A stretch of 64,000 nt of DNA, from positions 25,576,960 through 25,640,959 of the forward strand of contig NC_092563.1 in the NCBI RefSeq assembly GCF_037975245.1. Reading direction: 5' to 3'. Position numbers and translations under genes: made by a program. Every line of letters starts with the position of its first letter. The first letter of the stretch is position 1. Below, in pieces: positions 3,535-59,033 of the stretch. The stretch is from Apostichopus japonicus. Lineage: Eukaryota; Echinodermata; Holothuroidea; Aspidochirotida; Stichopodidae. Under the pieces are notes generated by a model. It saw only the letters and a list, made by a program, of their open reading frames with translations, was not told where the DNA came from and did no database searches.

Positions 3535-3708
3535 GTACCAATATTGAATCAAGCACCGAACTAGGAAATATTTACCAGTTTTGCCTGGAAGATTTTGAAG
3601 CTGGGGGATTCAGCCAACTATTAGACAAATACAACCTGTTCTATTGCATCACATCTAGCTACTGGCATTAATAACTCAATAATAAAAGAAGAACAAAGTT
3701 CAAACAAC
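3535..3708 (+). other. Candidate 5' UTR of the + strand riboflavin transporter
   Basis: A pyrimidine-rich tract ending in GACAG at 3530-3534 is a good splice acceptor. The following 174 bases reach the transporter ATG at 3709. The 5' noncoding part of the gene is therefore probably split, with the first exon upstream and not identified. The ATG has a purine at -3. Confidence 0.45.
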
Positions 3709-6137
3709 ATGGAACGGCGGAAGACGTTGAGGAAAGCTCTAGTGTGTCTGTTGGTGGTCTTCTTTGGGACTGGTTCTTGGGTCGCCATCAACGGTATTTG
3801 GGTGGAGCTCCCTCTACTGGTATCCCTCGGTATTCCCGAAGGTTACGGACTGGCATCCTATATCATCATCATAACCCAGTTTGCAAATCTCGGTCCCTTG
3901 CTATTCACATTAGCTAACTTCTTGACATCGAAAGATGTCAAACTTGAAGTGCCCACCGTGTACCTGATCACCACGGTCGGCTGGATCACCTGTCTGCTCA
4001 TGGTATTTTTCTGGGATAGTTACACATTCTGGGCCGGGGAAACCCACAGCACTGCCTTCCTGATTCTATGTCTGAGCCTAGCCGTCGTGGACTGCACCTC
4101 CTCTGTGGCTTTCACACCTTTCATGGCGCGATTCAAGAGCGTCTACCTCACATGGTACTTTGTGGGTGAAGGCATGAGTTCCCTTCTCCCCGGGGTGGTA
4201 GCTCTGATCCAAGGCGTAGGAGGAGACGGCGTGTGCATCGCAAACTACACCTATGAATATGAGTTGGGCGGGAAGACCTACCAGTGCACCGATTGGATCG
4301 CTCAAAACAAACCAGCTAGATTTGGTCCCGAGGAATTCTTTTTGTTTCTGTTTGGTATGATGGTCCTTTCTTTTACCGGCTTTCTCCTCCTGAATGTACT
4401 GCCAGTGGTGAAGAAAGAACACGCACACGATTCACCGTCGCAGTCGAGTGTAGATACCGTGTCCAGTAAGGAGAGTAACGAATCGCATAACATGTTAGTC
4501 ACAAGTACGAAGAGCGAAGTCTCGTTACCAGAGACGGCCGAACCAGCAGTCGATCTGAGCAGTCCCCAGCAAATCCAAGGTCGCCCTCTCAGGGACTTTG
4601 TCTACTTGTTTACAGTCTTGGGTGTGGTTAACGCCCTTAGTAATGGCATTTTACCTTCCATTCAAAGTTACTCTGCCGGTGCGTACTCCCTAACGACGTA
4701 CTTATATGCTGCCACCCTTGGTAACATTTCTAACCCTATAGCTTGCTTCGCTGTGATGCTATGGCCCTTTGAGAGCTTGATCATTGTAGGCATTGCTGCT
4801 GGAGGGGGTATACTTGCAGGGATCTATGGTCTGTGGACAGCTGCCAACAGCCTGGAGCCACCATTGGAGGATCAAACAATCGGTAGTGTACTCGTGGTAA
4901 GTCAAACAGCAGAACTTGTAATCTGTGTTTTGATCATTCTCATCCTGTTTTTGTGTACTTACAGGGACCGGAGGCACACTTTGAGTTAGGTTCAACTCGA
5001 AGAATTATCAGTAAACCTGTTGATTTTCCCAACAAATTCTATATCATTAATTGTTTGTTTGGATAAGATAGTCTTTTGATGTGAAAGCAAGCAAACTATT
5101 CCAGTGTGTATTTCTGATTCAAGGAGCAATCATAAAGATAATGAAAGGAAGCAGATGCTTTTCAATGGCAAGGACGCTTGCCTTCAACTTGTCATACAAA
5201 GGTTCATTGAAGCAGAAGCTCATAGCCCTAGATCTAGCAACATAGCTTTAAGTAACCAAACTGTATCCCACATTAGGACAAGCTATATTATGATGGACGT
5301 GTGTCGTATCGGTGTGAAGCACTGCCTTCATGTGTCATTTAGTCATGCCAATCGCTAATTCAATTAAAAAATCTTTCATGAGTAAGCAATTTTCTATCAA
5401 GCTACATTACAGACAGTTAATAAAGGACTCAAGAGTTGCATTTAGACACAAGATCAATGACATAATTTAGTAATGACCATTTCATGTCATAATGGGTGTT
5501 GTGACTGACTACTCACATCCTTATCATGTTACCCTACTGTGAGTTTGACTAATTGCATGGGACCAATCCACCTGTGTTAGCCTGGCAGACCTACATGCTG
5601 GAATATTGCTAATGTATCATGAATTGGAAGCTAATTTTCAATTATATTTTAATCAATTAATGGAACTCAAGGGAATCAAGAAAATATTTGAGGGTACCAC
5701 TGCAAAGGACTGGTTGCTGATGGCAATATCTAAGTGTGTACACACAGAGAATATAGTTCAAGTAATCTATTGTACAGTCAGTAAGAGACTCTTTGTAATG
5801 ATACAACACAACACATTGAAATCATCTAACCTAGTCTTCTTGTCTTCTCTCCCTCGGTCATCAGGTGTTTGCATGGATATGTGTCGTGGCATTCTTCTCA
5901 TACACCAAGGCAACAATTGGGTGGATTCTTCGCCAGGAGCCCAACAAGAGGACCCTTCTCATATGGTTTGGTGCTGTCACTCAAATTGGGTCGCTGACCG
6001 GGGCGTTAATCATGTTCCCAATTGTGACATTTACGTCGGCCTTTGTGGCTCCGTATCATGATCCCTGCGAAGGTAAATTAAACTGCACAGAAATGGTGAC
6101 GATGGTAGTCGATGGGATCGAGTACCTGACGACATGA
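3709..6137 (+). CDS. SLC52A: SLC52-type riboflavin transporter (copy 1)
   Basis: A plasma-membrane riboflavin (vitamin B2) uptake carrier of the SLC52/RFVT family. Two coding exons are visible: 3709-4896 (396 codons) and 5865-6137 (90 codons plus stop), joined in phase 0 over a 968-bp intron with a GTAAGT donor and TCAG acceptor. The product is 486 aa, close to human RFVT2/3. Family signatures include GSWVAINGIWVELPLLVSLG near residues 22-41, the Q-F-A-N-L-G-P-L-L-F stretch of the next helix, and KATIGWILR and HDPC in the last exon. About ten hydrophobic helices are evident; a Ser-rich loop at about 235-290 is the least conserved part. NYT (exon 1) and NCT (exon 2) are potential N-glycosylation sites. 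Which vertebrate member it matches cannot be settled here. A paralogue in opposite orientation lies at 18719-21639. Confidence 0.92.
4897..5864 (+). other. Intron of SLC52 copy 1
   Basis: Starts with GTAAGT and ends with a pyrimidine-rich tract and TCAG. Reading straight into it gives 31 further codons before a stop at 4987-4989, including a hydrophobic stretch followed by a basic tail. No repeat or RNA gene is recognised inside. Confidence 0.85.
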
Positions 6138-18718: not shown

Positions 18719-21639
18719 TCAGAGGGGCGTGACGAGGTCACTGTTGGACACACAGGGAGGCATATGCGAGCACGGATCTGGATAATAGGGCACAAACCAG
18801 TCTGTGTAGTGTACAAGTGGAAAGATGACAATGGCTCCCAGTAAAGACCCTATTTGATTGATGATGCCGTAACATATCAACAGGACACGATTATTTGGCT
18901 CCATTCGTAGGATCCATCCGATGGTTGCCCGTACAAAATGAAAGCATCCTGATGACAGAAACCAAGCCAAAACCTGTGGAAATGAAAAACAGGGACGAAT
19001 GACTTGCCTTTATAAGTGTTGGTTATACTAATTTTACTGATTTTAATGAATTGTTGTAATATTTCCAATTAGAGCGACACATCGATTATCAGTTACTTTT
19101 CAGCAGTATATATTTAATATTTATTCTGCATCTATAGATATATTGGTTCTCGACAGGCCATTTTTTTAGCTACAGTAAGGCAACCCTCGGTTATTGGATG
19201 GATTCTTTGCTACCCAATGTAGGGTTGTTATGGAGAATAATTTCTGGCTCATTTTGTAATGCACAAATTTCTTCACACAGTCATGCTGACATTACAATTC
19301 AAGCCTTTTTGATGTTGCAAATTAAAATTGGAAAATTATGAGTTATATATTTATTTATTTTTGATTGATTTTTTTTTTGGCTCTTTCATCCCAACAGAAA
19401 TGTAAGATGACACAATCCCTCCCCCCCCCCCCGTTCCCCCTCACAGAAGAACAATTAGGTTGCTTTAAGGGATACAATATAAATACTCCACATTATGTTT
19501 ACAGACGATCATTTGGTGAATTCTGGGGCATATTTAGGCTATTAATTAGGTCTATTGTACATGCAAGGTTGTGCTAATAACTACTGTTAATGTTTTGTGT
19601 GAGGTTGGAAGGTGCAGTGAACACTATCAGGATCAAGAGTAATCTTAAAGCAGCATTTTGCGTCCTTTTCTATGATATTTCTCAACCTCACTGACTGCAC
19701 TATGCCATAACGACATACATAACTAGCTAAATCTATTTAAATCTTACTTCAAATGGTGGCATAAAAGTCGAAAACTTTGCAACTTTCAACTTTGTTTTTT
19801 CTCCAAGATATTTTCCATTGGGATCCAAATAAACCTCGCCCATAATATGAATATTTAAATGCTACGAACGTCATTGACCAATAGGCCTACGTAATACAAC
19901 ACCATGCTTGATTTGTGTACAGTCTATATGACAGATGTACCAGGGAGTTCCATAACAACTCCCTGGTTGTACCAACGCAAAGTCTTGAATCTATTTTTAG
20001 CAACGGCTCATAACTAAACCTGCATCTCTGATTGGTTGAATTCAAACTAGTGGGTTTGGGGAAACCGTATGCGATTAATTTTAACCGTGGAATTTGTCGT
20101 CCGTGGACACTTTTCTCATCTGCAAAAATCCTTAATTACTCGCCAATTAACGTTGTTGGCAGGGAAAAACTTGGCTAATATCTTACTGTAGTTTGCTGTT
20201 TTGTGATTGATATATGTAAAAAACTCGATGGACATGTCAAAAAGTAGAAAATGGCGACCAAACGCAAAATGCTGCTTTAAGGGAGCAGTGTTTCATTTTA
20301 ACAAAGCATAAATTTGAAGAAGCACTTGCTCCAGTGAAAGGTTCCCCATACACAGCACTACATACACACCTAGTAGTGCGTGTGAGATGGTGCCCGATAT
20401 TTTCAGTTACAACCATTACTTGACATTCTACTGATTAAACTAGCGACTTACCACAAGTATGCTGCCCATTACACTGTCTTGTAAAGGTGGCAATGGACTC
20501 GTTAAGGCAGTCACAAAACAGTAGATCCCTGCAACTGTTCCTAAGGCAAAAACAGTGATGACCAGAACAAAACTCCTGGAGGGCTTTAGCATCACAACAA
20601 AACACGCTAAGGGATTAGCAATGTTGCCGAATGTTGCGGCTAACAGGTAAATGTTCAAACCGTATGCACCGGCCGAGTAGCTCTGTATAGAGGGCAGTAC
20701 ACAGTTCACTAATGCATTGGCTACACCCAAGATGACAAACAAGGCAACAAATTCCAGAATACTACTGCTCTGTCGTGGTTGAGACAAGACCGAGGATACT
20801 TCTATTTCATCATCCTCGTCTTTCTTGGAAGACACCATTTCATACTGCCTCTGCCTTTGGTTGCCCCCGGCATCAGAACTAGCTTCTCTTTGTTGGTTCA
20901 GATACTCAGGTGCATACTCTCTCCGAACAGATGGCAGATGGTTCAGACAGACAAATGCTACGAAGCAAGACAACATCATGACACTCAAAAATGAAAAGAA
21001 GACTTCGGGACCAAAGCGTGCCGGTTTAGTTTCATGCGTCCAAGATGTACACTGTCTTAGCTCTCCCGAGTCGTCATAATCATTGTACGTATAATTTGCC
21101 ACACACACTGGGGCTCCTCCTACTCCTTGTATTATGGCAACTAAGCTAGGAATCATACCACTCAGGCCCATGCCGATGAAAAACCAGTTCATGTACTGGC
21201 TCTTCAATCGAGCCATGAAAGGAGGGAAAGTCACATTCGAAGTGCAATCGACTAATGCCAAAAGGAAGACAAATATCGTGAAATAGGTGCTGTGCAGTTG
21301 GTTATCTAGCTTCCAGATGGTGAAAACATCCCAGTAAAATATCAGAAAGACACATGTGGCTGTTCCAACCGCAGATATTAAGTAATTGGTTGGCCCCTCC
21401 AACTGGTATCCCTTTGGTGCCATGTAGTTGATGACTGCGAACAGAAGAGGACCAATGTTTGCCACCTGGATGATAATTACTAACCAAGAAGCGATCTCAA
21501 ACTGTTCTGGAATACCCAAAGAAACAAGCAGAGGCAGCTCCACCCAAATTGAATTGATTCCGATCCATGATCCTTGCCCAAACAAGAGGACTAGAAAGAT
21601 CACAAAGACCTGCATCGTGGTAGGTTTGCTAGTACTCAT
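18719..21639 (-). CDS. SLC52A: SLC52-type riboflavin transporter (copy 2)
   Basis: Second riboflavin carrier. Coding exons on the minus strand are 21639-20452 (396 codons) and 18973-18719 (84 codons plus stop), giving 480 aa, joined in phase 0 by a 1478-bp GTAAGT...CACAG intron. The intron falls at the same protein position as in copy 1, after G-S-[VI]-L-V. I use the ATG at 21639 (MSTSKPTT); the open frame extends to 21654 only through a GTG, an unlikely start here, and this ATG has A at -3. Signatures include GSWIGINSIWVELPLLVSLG, KPARFGPEVFFSFL, RATIGWILR and PDPC. The middle loop (about 235-290) differs in sequence from copy 1 and is Gln/Arg-rich. The substrate is assigned from the family. 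Confidence 0.92.
18974..20451 (-). other. Intron of SLC52 copy 2
   Basis: Bounded by a GTAAGT donor (at 20451 on the minus strand) and a CACAG acceptor (18974-18978). It contains a C-homopolymer near 19420-19432 and a hairpin at 19939-19967. A short ORF at 19365-19577 has no recognised domain. Confidence 0.85.
19939..19967. repeat. Perfect 11-bp inverted repeat (hairpin)
   Basis: ACCAGGGAGTT, a 7-nt loop and its exact reverse complement. It shares the ACCAGGGAG stem start with the hairpin at 839-871 but differs in inner stem and loop. Confidence 0.7.
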
Positions 21640-21681
21640 CCTCAAAGATGGCACTTGTACAACTTAATGAACTTGCCAAAA
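21640..21681 (-). other. 5' UTR end of SLC52 copy 2 with splice acceptor
   Basis: On the minus strand a pyrimidine-rich run ending TTTTTCAG stops at 21682; the 42 bases after it lead to the ATG at 21639. As in copy 1, the 5' UTR is probably split. An upstream first exon could lie near 22.9-23.0 kb, but no clear donor fixes it. Confidence 0.5.
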
Positions 21682-58602: not shown

Positions 58603-58703
58603 CAGTAAACTATTATTTTAAGTTACTTACCACTCTATCCCAATGTCAGCATTGGTGGTATAGACAGAAAGGAAAAGAGTGATGTCATTAATACTTTTTA
58701 TTT

Positions 58704-58889
58704 AAAAAAAAGTCGCCCAGGAAAGAACCTGGGCACGAAAACCAAACTACAGAACGACTGATCCGCTCTCAACCCCAGTCCCCTTGCATCGGGACTGTGA
58801 CTGTGTGATCATCGTTGGGTGTGCATCACCATTCCTTCGAAAGGGAACAGATACTACACATGATCTTAGCCAAAAGGCCGAGAAGCGAA
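58704..58889 (-). ncRNA. U2 snRNA-headed structured RNA or retroposon
   Basis: Read from 58889 on the minus strand, the first 45 bases match the metazoan U2 snRNA 5' end at 43 positions by my recollection, including stem-loop I (CUUCUCGGCCUUUUGGCUAAG) and the branch-site-pairing GUAGUA. After GUAUCUGUUC the sequence no longer resembles U2: no U2 stem IIa/IIb, no clear Sm site (only UAGUUUGGUUUUCG). Instead come further hairpins, notably CAGTCCC/GGGACTG (58776-58797) and GCCCAGG/CCTGGGC (58715-58734), then T8 at the 3' end. The terminal hairpin loop GGTTCTTTCC is faintly like a tRNA box B. Near-identical 12-mers flank it (58681-58692, 58896-58907; one mismatch). It is either a U2-headed SINE-like retroposon or a U2-chimeric RNA gene. 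Confidence 0.6.
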
Positions 58890-59033
58890 AGGAGGGATAT
58901 CATTAATTGATTGTGGTATTTTTACTTCATTAAAATGGTACCATCTTATAATTAACAGCCCCGCTTTAAACAAACTATCCCACAAGAGATTCGCTGTAAT
59001 TAAACCCAACAACTTATTCGCACATTCATTGCT

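Follow-up and report, generated by a model that had tools for sequence, protein, structure and literature searches.

The usual expectation for a SINE is a Pol III promoter within the element, and animal U1 and U2 genes have external Pol II promoters, which is what makes SINEs headed by these snRNAs puzzling. Such elements, known as SINEU, were reportedly characterized by Kojima in 2015 as having U1 or U2 heads, recurrent head addition and mobilisation by a Tx1-clade LINE. The LINE Keno belongs to this clade. Papers that cite this work describe SINEU as the snRNA-headed SINEs of crocodilians (PMC5753468, PMC7245038, PMC8010984). Keno is an APE-type, U2-specific LINE, and Utopia, of RLE type, uses the same U2 site (PMC4640811). 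The R2 SIDEs are non-autonomous site-specific elements in 28S genes, with a self-cleaving ribozyme and LINE ends (PMC3414825). A search of the open-access literature found no papers on U2-targeted SINEs or on snRNA SINEs of echinoderms.

Here we describe a SINE of Apostichopus japonicus that fits the snRNA-headed class (SINEU) and works in part like the R2 SIDEs. As in SINEU, its head is derived from an snRNA, here nt 1-45 of the host U2; unlike SINEU, it lives in an echinoderm, an unrelated host. Compared with SINEU by description, the present element further stands out by copies inside U2 genes that occupy a LINE target, with parts of U2 duplicated and the upstream flank of the gene preserved, and by its nesting in U2 heads. 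With regard to mobilisation by the Tx1 clade, APE-type Tx1-like LINEs occupy the same U2 site, and tail similarity, which is weak, is seen to LINE family E alone. Like the R2 SIDEs, the resident copies are short non-autonomous insertions in a tandem host RNA gene, placed where an autonomous LINE also inserts, with variation at the 5′ junction, and the SINE would share their reliance on co-transcription with the host gene. Unlike the SIDEs, it has no detected LINE ends (the tails of the resident LINEs do not align with it above chance) and no Rfam match to a ribozyme, and ~1,900 of its copies have left the array carrying host sequence, whereas SIDEs are described in 28S genes. Copies in U2 genes at the site of U2 LINEs show how such an element can acquire a U2 head and probably a promoter. 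Since a single assembly holds resident copies, dispersed ones identical to them and candidate LINEs, the origin of the head and the transcription of the SINE are directly testable.

Results

The window, the whole 64,000-nt stretch of A. japonicus DNA that was analysed, contains an old, dead copy of a U2-headed SINE family, with the following features.

58693-58888, minus strand: whole SINE, consisting of host U2 nt 2-45, a structured body of ~145 nt and an A-rich tail
58892-58907, minus strand: 5′ target-site duplication (TSD) ATTAATGATATCCCTC (minus-strand reading), with 2 mismatches to the 3′ TSD
58889-58891, minus strand: CTT, three extra bases between 5′ TSD and head, read directly
58845-58888, minus strand: head, U2 snRNA nt 2-45 with stem I and the branch-point recognition region, 44/44 identical to the host U2 genes of the C16 array
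58701-58844, minus strand: SINE body, structured and unrelated to the remainder of U2 (a body 32-mer has 1902 copies in the genome against 0 for its control; folding)
58693-58700, minus strand: A-rich tail AAAAAGT (family consensus CTTAAAAAGTAT, in which GTAT corresponds to U2 nt 36-39)
58677-58692, minus strand: 3′ TSD ATTAATGACATCACTC (minus-strand reading)

The Rfam U2 model (RF00004) matched 58889-58814 with 52.5 bits, against a gathering score of 46, and this match is carried essentially by nt 1-45. The head (nt 2-45, 58888-58845) is that of the host's own U2 genes, and beyond nt 45 the sequence departs from U2. A match of 43 of 45 bases to the U2 5′ end, given in a preliminary description made from the window alone, is thus real, and its two missing bases probably reflect the T at nt 30 of host U2, where the Rfam consensus has A. 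The flanking 12-mers noted in that description, ATTAATGATATC (58907-58896) and ATTAATGACATC (58692-58681), differ by 1 mismatch, and at 58907-58892 and 58692-58677 they widen to 16 bp with 2 mismatches; they are true TSDs, with duplications found in 44 of the 69 headed copies among the 90 that were read and in 0 of 271 mispaired control flanks. In the predicted fold, U2 nt 31-45 pair with the start of the body, and the body ends in a GCCCAGG/CCTGGGC hairpin followed by a T-run. The T8, previously taken for the end of the element, is a change private to this copy, the family consensus at that point being TTTTTCTTAAAAAGTAT, and therefore the T-run is not the 3′ end. The window copy is 97.4% identical to the consensus of the older subfamily. 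Elsewhere in the window, two long ORFs in inverted orientation, at 3625-4989 (+) and 20440-21663 (-), resemble SLC52-type riboflavin transporters by eye.

The mitochondrial contig of the assembly (16,099 bp) encodes a COX1 that gives a normal protein with translation table 9 (AAA Asn, ATA Ile, AGR Ser, TGA Trp), which restores conserved Asn and Ile residues and very probably marks the genome as that of an echinoderm. Across the searched genome (671.6 Mb, 35 contigs), a 206-nt query gave 2,171 candidates, 44 scored matches among them, and the body 32-mer, allowing 3 mismatches at most, has 1,902 occurrences, compared to 0 for the reversed control. The elements are short (<600 bp), non-coding, high in copy number and dispersed. 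A genome search of the kind proposed in the preliminary description therefore returned ~1,900 body copies with differing flanks and their own target duplications, bearing out its suggestion of a U2-headed SINE in an invertebrate. There are two subfamilies, an older and larger one and a younger one, which differ at several body positions. In a separate count of 60 copies chosen by position, the full head was missing in 21, mostly through 5′ truncation, so that the family shows both hallmarks of LINE-mediated TPRT, target duplications and loss of 5′ ends. Complete dispersed copies begin at U2 nt 1-3, that is, at the U2 transcription start. An exact 139-nt string is found in 96 copies, 3 in the U2 array and the others across nearly all chromosomes, and this identity between dispersed and U2-resident copies indicates that the family was recently active. 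Outside the SINE, the fetched loci yielded a single match to body or tail, a tail-only match in a rearranged SINE copy (L094). The tRNA-like 3′ module that had been suggested was not found, as ARAGORN reported no tRNA and Rfam reported only U2, leaving no detected similarity to tRNA, 5S or 7SL. Derivation of the body from the 3′ half of U2 itself was also considered, and a by-eye comparison with host U2 gave no match.

The host U2 genes, 193 nt at full length, form a 645-bp tandem array on contig C16, with a few further genes on C15. Alignment of U2 to the array loci revealed U2 genes broken near nt 25-53, and the SINE body lies within these true host genes, flanked by U2 target duplications, an arrangement beyond what the window alone could reveal. 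The resident structure is U2(1-45)-body-AAAAA|GTATCTGTTC...U2 with a 10-18 bp U2 duplication, the sequence as read being U2(1-45)-CCTTAGGGAATGG...CTTAAAAA|GTATCTGTTCTTTTCAGC, and the U2 upstream flank is intact (99.7-100% over 300 nt). Resident copies carry their own loop variants, CCTTAGGG and CCCTCGGG. The exact 3′ junction GACTTTTTCTTAAAAA|GTATCTGTTCTTTTC is found six times in the C16 array, with one further occurrence on each of C5 and C20; the C5 junction comes from a copy that has nested in the head of another SINE with a TTTT junction, and the C20 junction is that of an old insertion into a U2 copy that has diverged (L064, L065). One resident body is 5′-truncated with U2 36-53 duplicated on both sides (L068), another is likewise 5′-truncated and adjoins a LINE (L066), and one U2 gene holds two tandem bodies with GTATCTGTTC between them (L062). 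The resident copies are target-primed insertions at U2 nt 36 with duplications of 10-18 bp.

The U2 array (G000:C16:30966272-31170198) contains 84 U2 3′ halves separated by 83 intervals, 53 of them regular (645 bp) and 30 irregular; 20 of the irregular intervals have the length of a LINE (5.3-6 kb), and the length of five corresponds to one or two SINE bodies. One of two 5313-bp intervals was read, and its LINE sits just upstream of U2, outside the gene. At least three Keno-like LINE families are present in the array. LINE-A encodes a 510-aa ORF1 with a CCHC zinc knuckle and a 1162-aa ORF2 with Exo_endo_phos, RVT_1 and zf-RVT domains, and is flanked by U2 1-50 on one side and U2 36 onward on the other. 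Its whole 268-nt 3′ end has 7 matching copies, all 7 in the C16 array. With a U2 target and an APE-type endonuclease, LINE-A is Keno-like by site and domains, and the ORF2 of two further array families is 51% and 47% identical to its own. The 3′ junction of the array LINEs in U2 is that of the SINE, and it coincides with the published site of Keno and Utopia (PMC4640811). The autonomous LINE families of the array thus resemble these elements in their use of the site; unlike the SINE itself, they are probable helpers within the array. A further APE-type LINE with a 961-aa ORF2 lies just upstream of U2 units (L061, C16:31040900-31046500), and a regular cluster of RT matches with 926-aa frames was seen near the start of C7 (C7:316612-373963).

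Alignment of the SINE 3′ end to LINE tails, as the preliminary description had advised, gave a divided result. The 3′ 70 nt resembled the tails of the U2-resident families and of the dispersed family D no more than expected by chance, and they matched weakly the tail of family E, a dispersed Tx1-like LINE abundant on C17 with an ORF2 37-38% identical to that of LINE-A. This tail aligns collinearly with the SINE, with GTTCGGTAGT equally far from the end and TAAAAAG at the end; depending on the copy, a score this high is reached by 6 to 98 of 1000 shuffles. As a candidate helper for dispersal, family E is a lead, not proof. The region of C17 at about 16-25 Mb, where identical young SINE copies and family E both abound, could be a young or heterochromatic one.

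Following the A-run, G, T, A and T are found in 87, 83, 82 and 57% of copies, and the next base is C in 42% of copies compared to a background of 18% (p = 4e-7); this series matches the start of U2 nt 36-40. In copies with TSDs, the GT (up to GTAT) usually comes from the element and not from the target, and among their targets C is enriched at the position of U2 C40 (15/33 vs 18%, p = 3e-4). These results indicate that the RNA ends in about AAAAAGUAU and that targets resemble U2. ACTTTTT and AAAAAGT can pair as a terminal hairpin, so the GT may be the element's own rather than U2 read-through. The exact junction AAAAAGTATCTGTTC|CC was found at five places in the U2 heads of other copies, and at L074 (C2:21947517-21949050), L075 and L076, 3-8 SINE copies are repeatedly inserted at the same GTATCC/GTACC target, each insertion regenerating the site. 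This nesting occurs because the SINE carries the LINE target in its own head.

Discussion

The SINE resides in host U2 genes and is dispersed through the genome. We think it likely that the resident copies are masters expressed under the U2 promoter, and that a Tx1-like LINE scatters the chimeric RNA; here we infer that the U2 promoter is used and that resident copies gave rise to dispersed ones. A resident copy, with its intact U2 promoter and its start at U2 +1, would produce a U2(1-45)-body RNA, and such a copy would be the simplest source of an RNA that runs from U2 +1 into the body. The reverse transcriptase of the LINE would prime on the AAAAAGUAU tail and scatter this RNA at GTATC-like sites. 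A scattered copy would be promoterless and dead on arrival, and would regain a promoter on landing in a U2 gene; the U2 upstream flank is absent from all dispersed loci fetched. The head would thus be the 5′ co-transcript of a host gene, as 28S sequence is for R2, and not an internal promoter. Comparison of the C15 and C16 U2 genes gave no clear common promoter motif at equal distance, and no signal for the transcript 3′ end was identified in the SINE.

Two variants of the head-body junction, CCTT and TTTT (CC or TT after U2 nt 45, TTTT being the U2 sequence), are found among young as well as old forms. Their presence suggests that the family has come into contact with U2 genes, or passed through them, repeatedly, and simple mutation could also have produced the variants. 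Whether such passage is obligate we judge to be evenly balanced. This stricter reading would have U2-resident masters at the U2-LINE site, transcription by Pol II from the U2 promoter, re-capture of U2 nt 1-45 in each generation, a AAAAAGUAU tail matching the U2 target, and a body holding the branch-point sequence locked in a hairpin. If true, it would represent a SINE with no promoter of its own and give a concrete origin for snRNA-headed SINEs. With so few insertions in the U2 array (six places), and these nearly identical, the resident copies could also be by-products of RNAs made elsewhere.

Such a by-product origin belongs to an account that we regard as unlikely, in which the U2 head was gained once, by a template jump of the reverse transcriptase onto U2 RNA or a single U2 passage, the dispersed copies are transcribed from an internal, perhaps Pol III, promoter, and the insertions in U2 genes follow from the match of head or tail to the U2 target. 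Head and body do travel together in many copies, and template jumps of R2 to small stable RNAs have been reported (PMC3414825). A jump alone, however, leaves unexplained why bodies within U2 genes come with duplications of U2 36-45 or 36-53 and why tails end in U2's GTAT, and the junction variants shared by young and old forms point to more than one contact with U2. As for the promoter, TGGCTAAGATC in the U2 head is loosely A-box-like by eye, yet none of the similarity to tRNA, 5S or 7SL that would favor Pol III was detected, and the sequence downstream of an internal T5 is kept in 90/90 sampled copies, which speaks against a Pol III product ending at this T5.

The predicted RNA structure bears on a possible role in splicing, since a functional chimeric spliceosomal RNA still able to pair with branch sites had been raised as an alternative. 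The well-paired hairpins described for the body are borne out, as the folding energies of the young and old consensus-like sequences are -74 and -75.8 kcal/mol, respectively (z of -4.5 and -4.7), and 0 of 200 shuffles were as stable. In these folds, U2 nt 31-45, which contain the branch-point recognition sequence, pair with the first part of the body. The energy of this head-body pairing was reached by 1 (young) and 3 (old) of 2000 body shuffles and by 15 and 24 of 2000 head shuffles. The chimeric RNA may therefore hide the recognition sequence, which speaks against a role in splicing. In favor of such a role, the head keeps stem I and GUAGUA intact, but nt 1-45 are all that is present of U2 by Rfam and by comparison with host U2, with the Sm site, stem-loops III/IV and the rest of the 3′ half absent, while the host array holds 84 true U2 3′ halves. 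In addition, head and body of older dispersed copies have diverged equally outside the fixed 32-mer (5.9% vs 5.3%, Fisher p = 0.44), indicating that dispersed copies are not under constraint. A spliceosomal function is thus left without support and is highly improbable. Least credible of all is an ordinary U2 retropseudogene or a single-locus chance chimera. The 5′ end near U2 +1 and the TSDs do resemble those of snRNA retrocopies, but the recurrence of the same non-U2 body in ~1,900 copies refutes this reading, and true U2 copies retain the 3′ half.

SINE copies with a TTTTCGGG junction form inverted pairs 2-3.4 kb apart, and in the single pair that was read (L099, L100) the TSD is the same. 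Such pairs lie at C2:13099707/13102874, C3:5845498/5847483, C3:25407316/25410319, C7:5899543/5902100, C16:10514684/10517721, C16:23429866/23433238, C19:27865158/27867375 and C19:10651947/10653770. In these pairs the SINE is probably a passenger, carried within the terminal inverted repeats of a DNA transposon.
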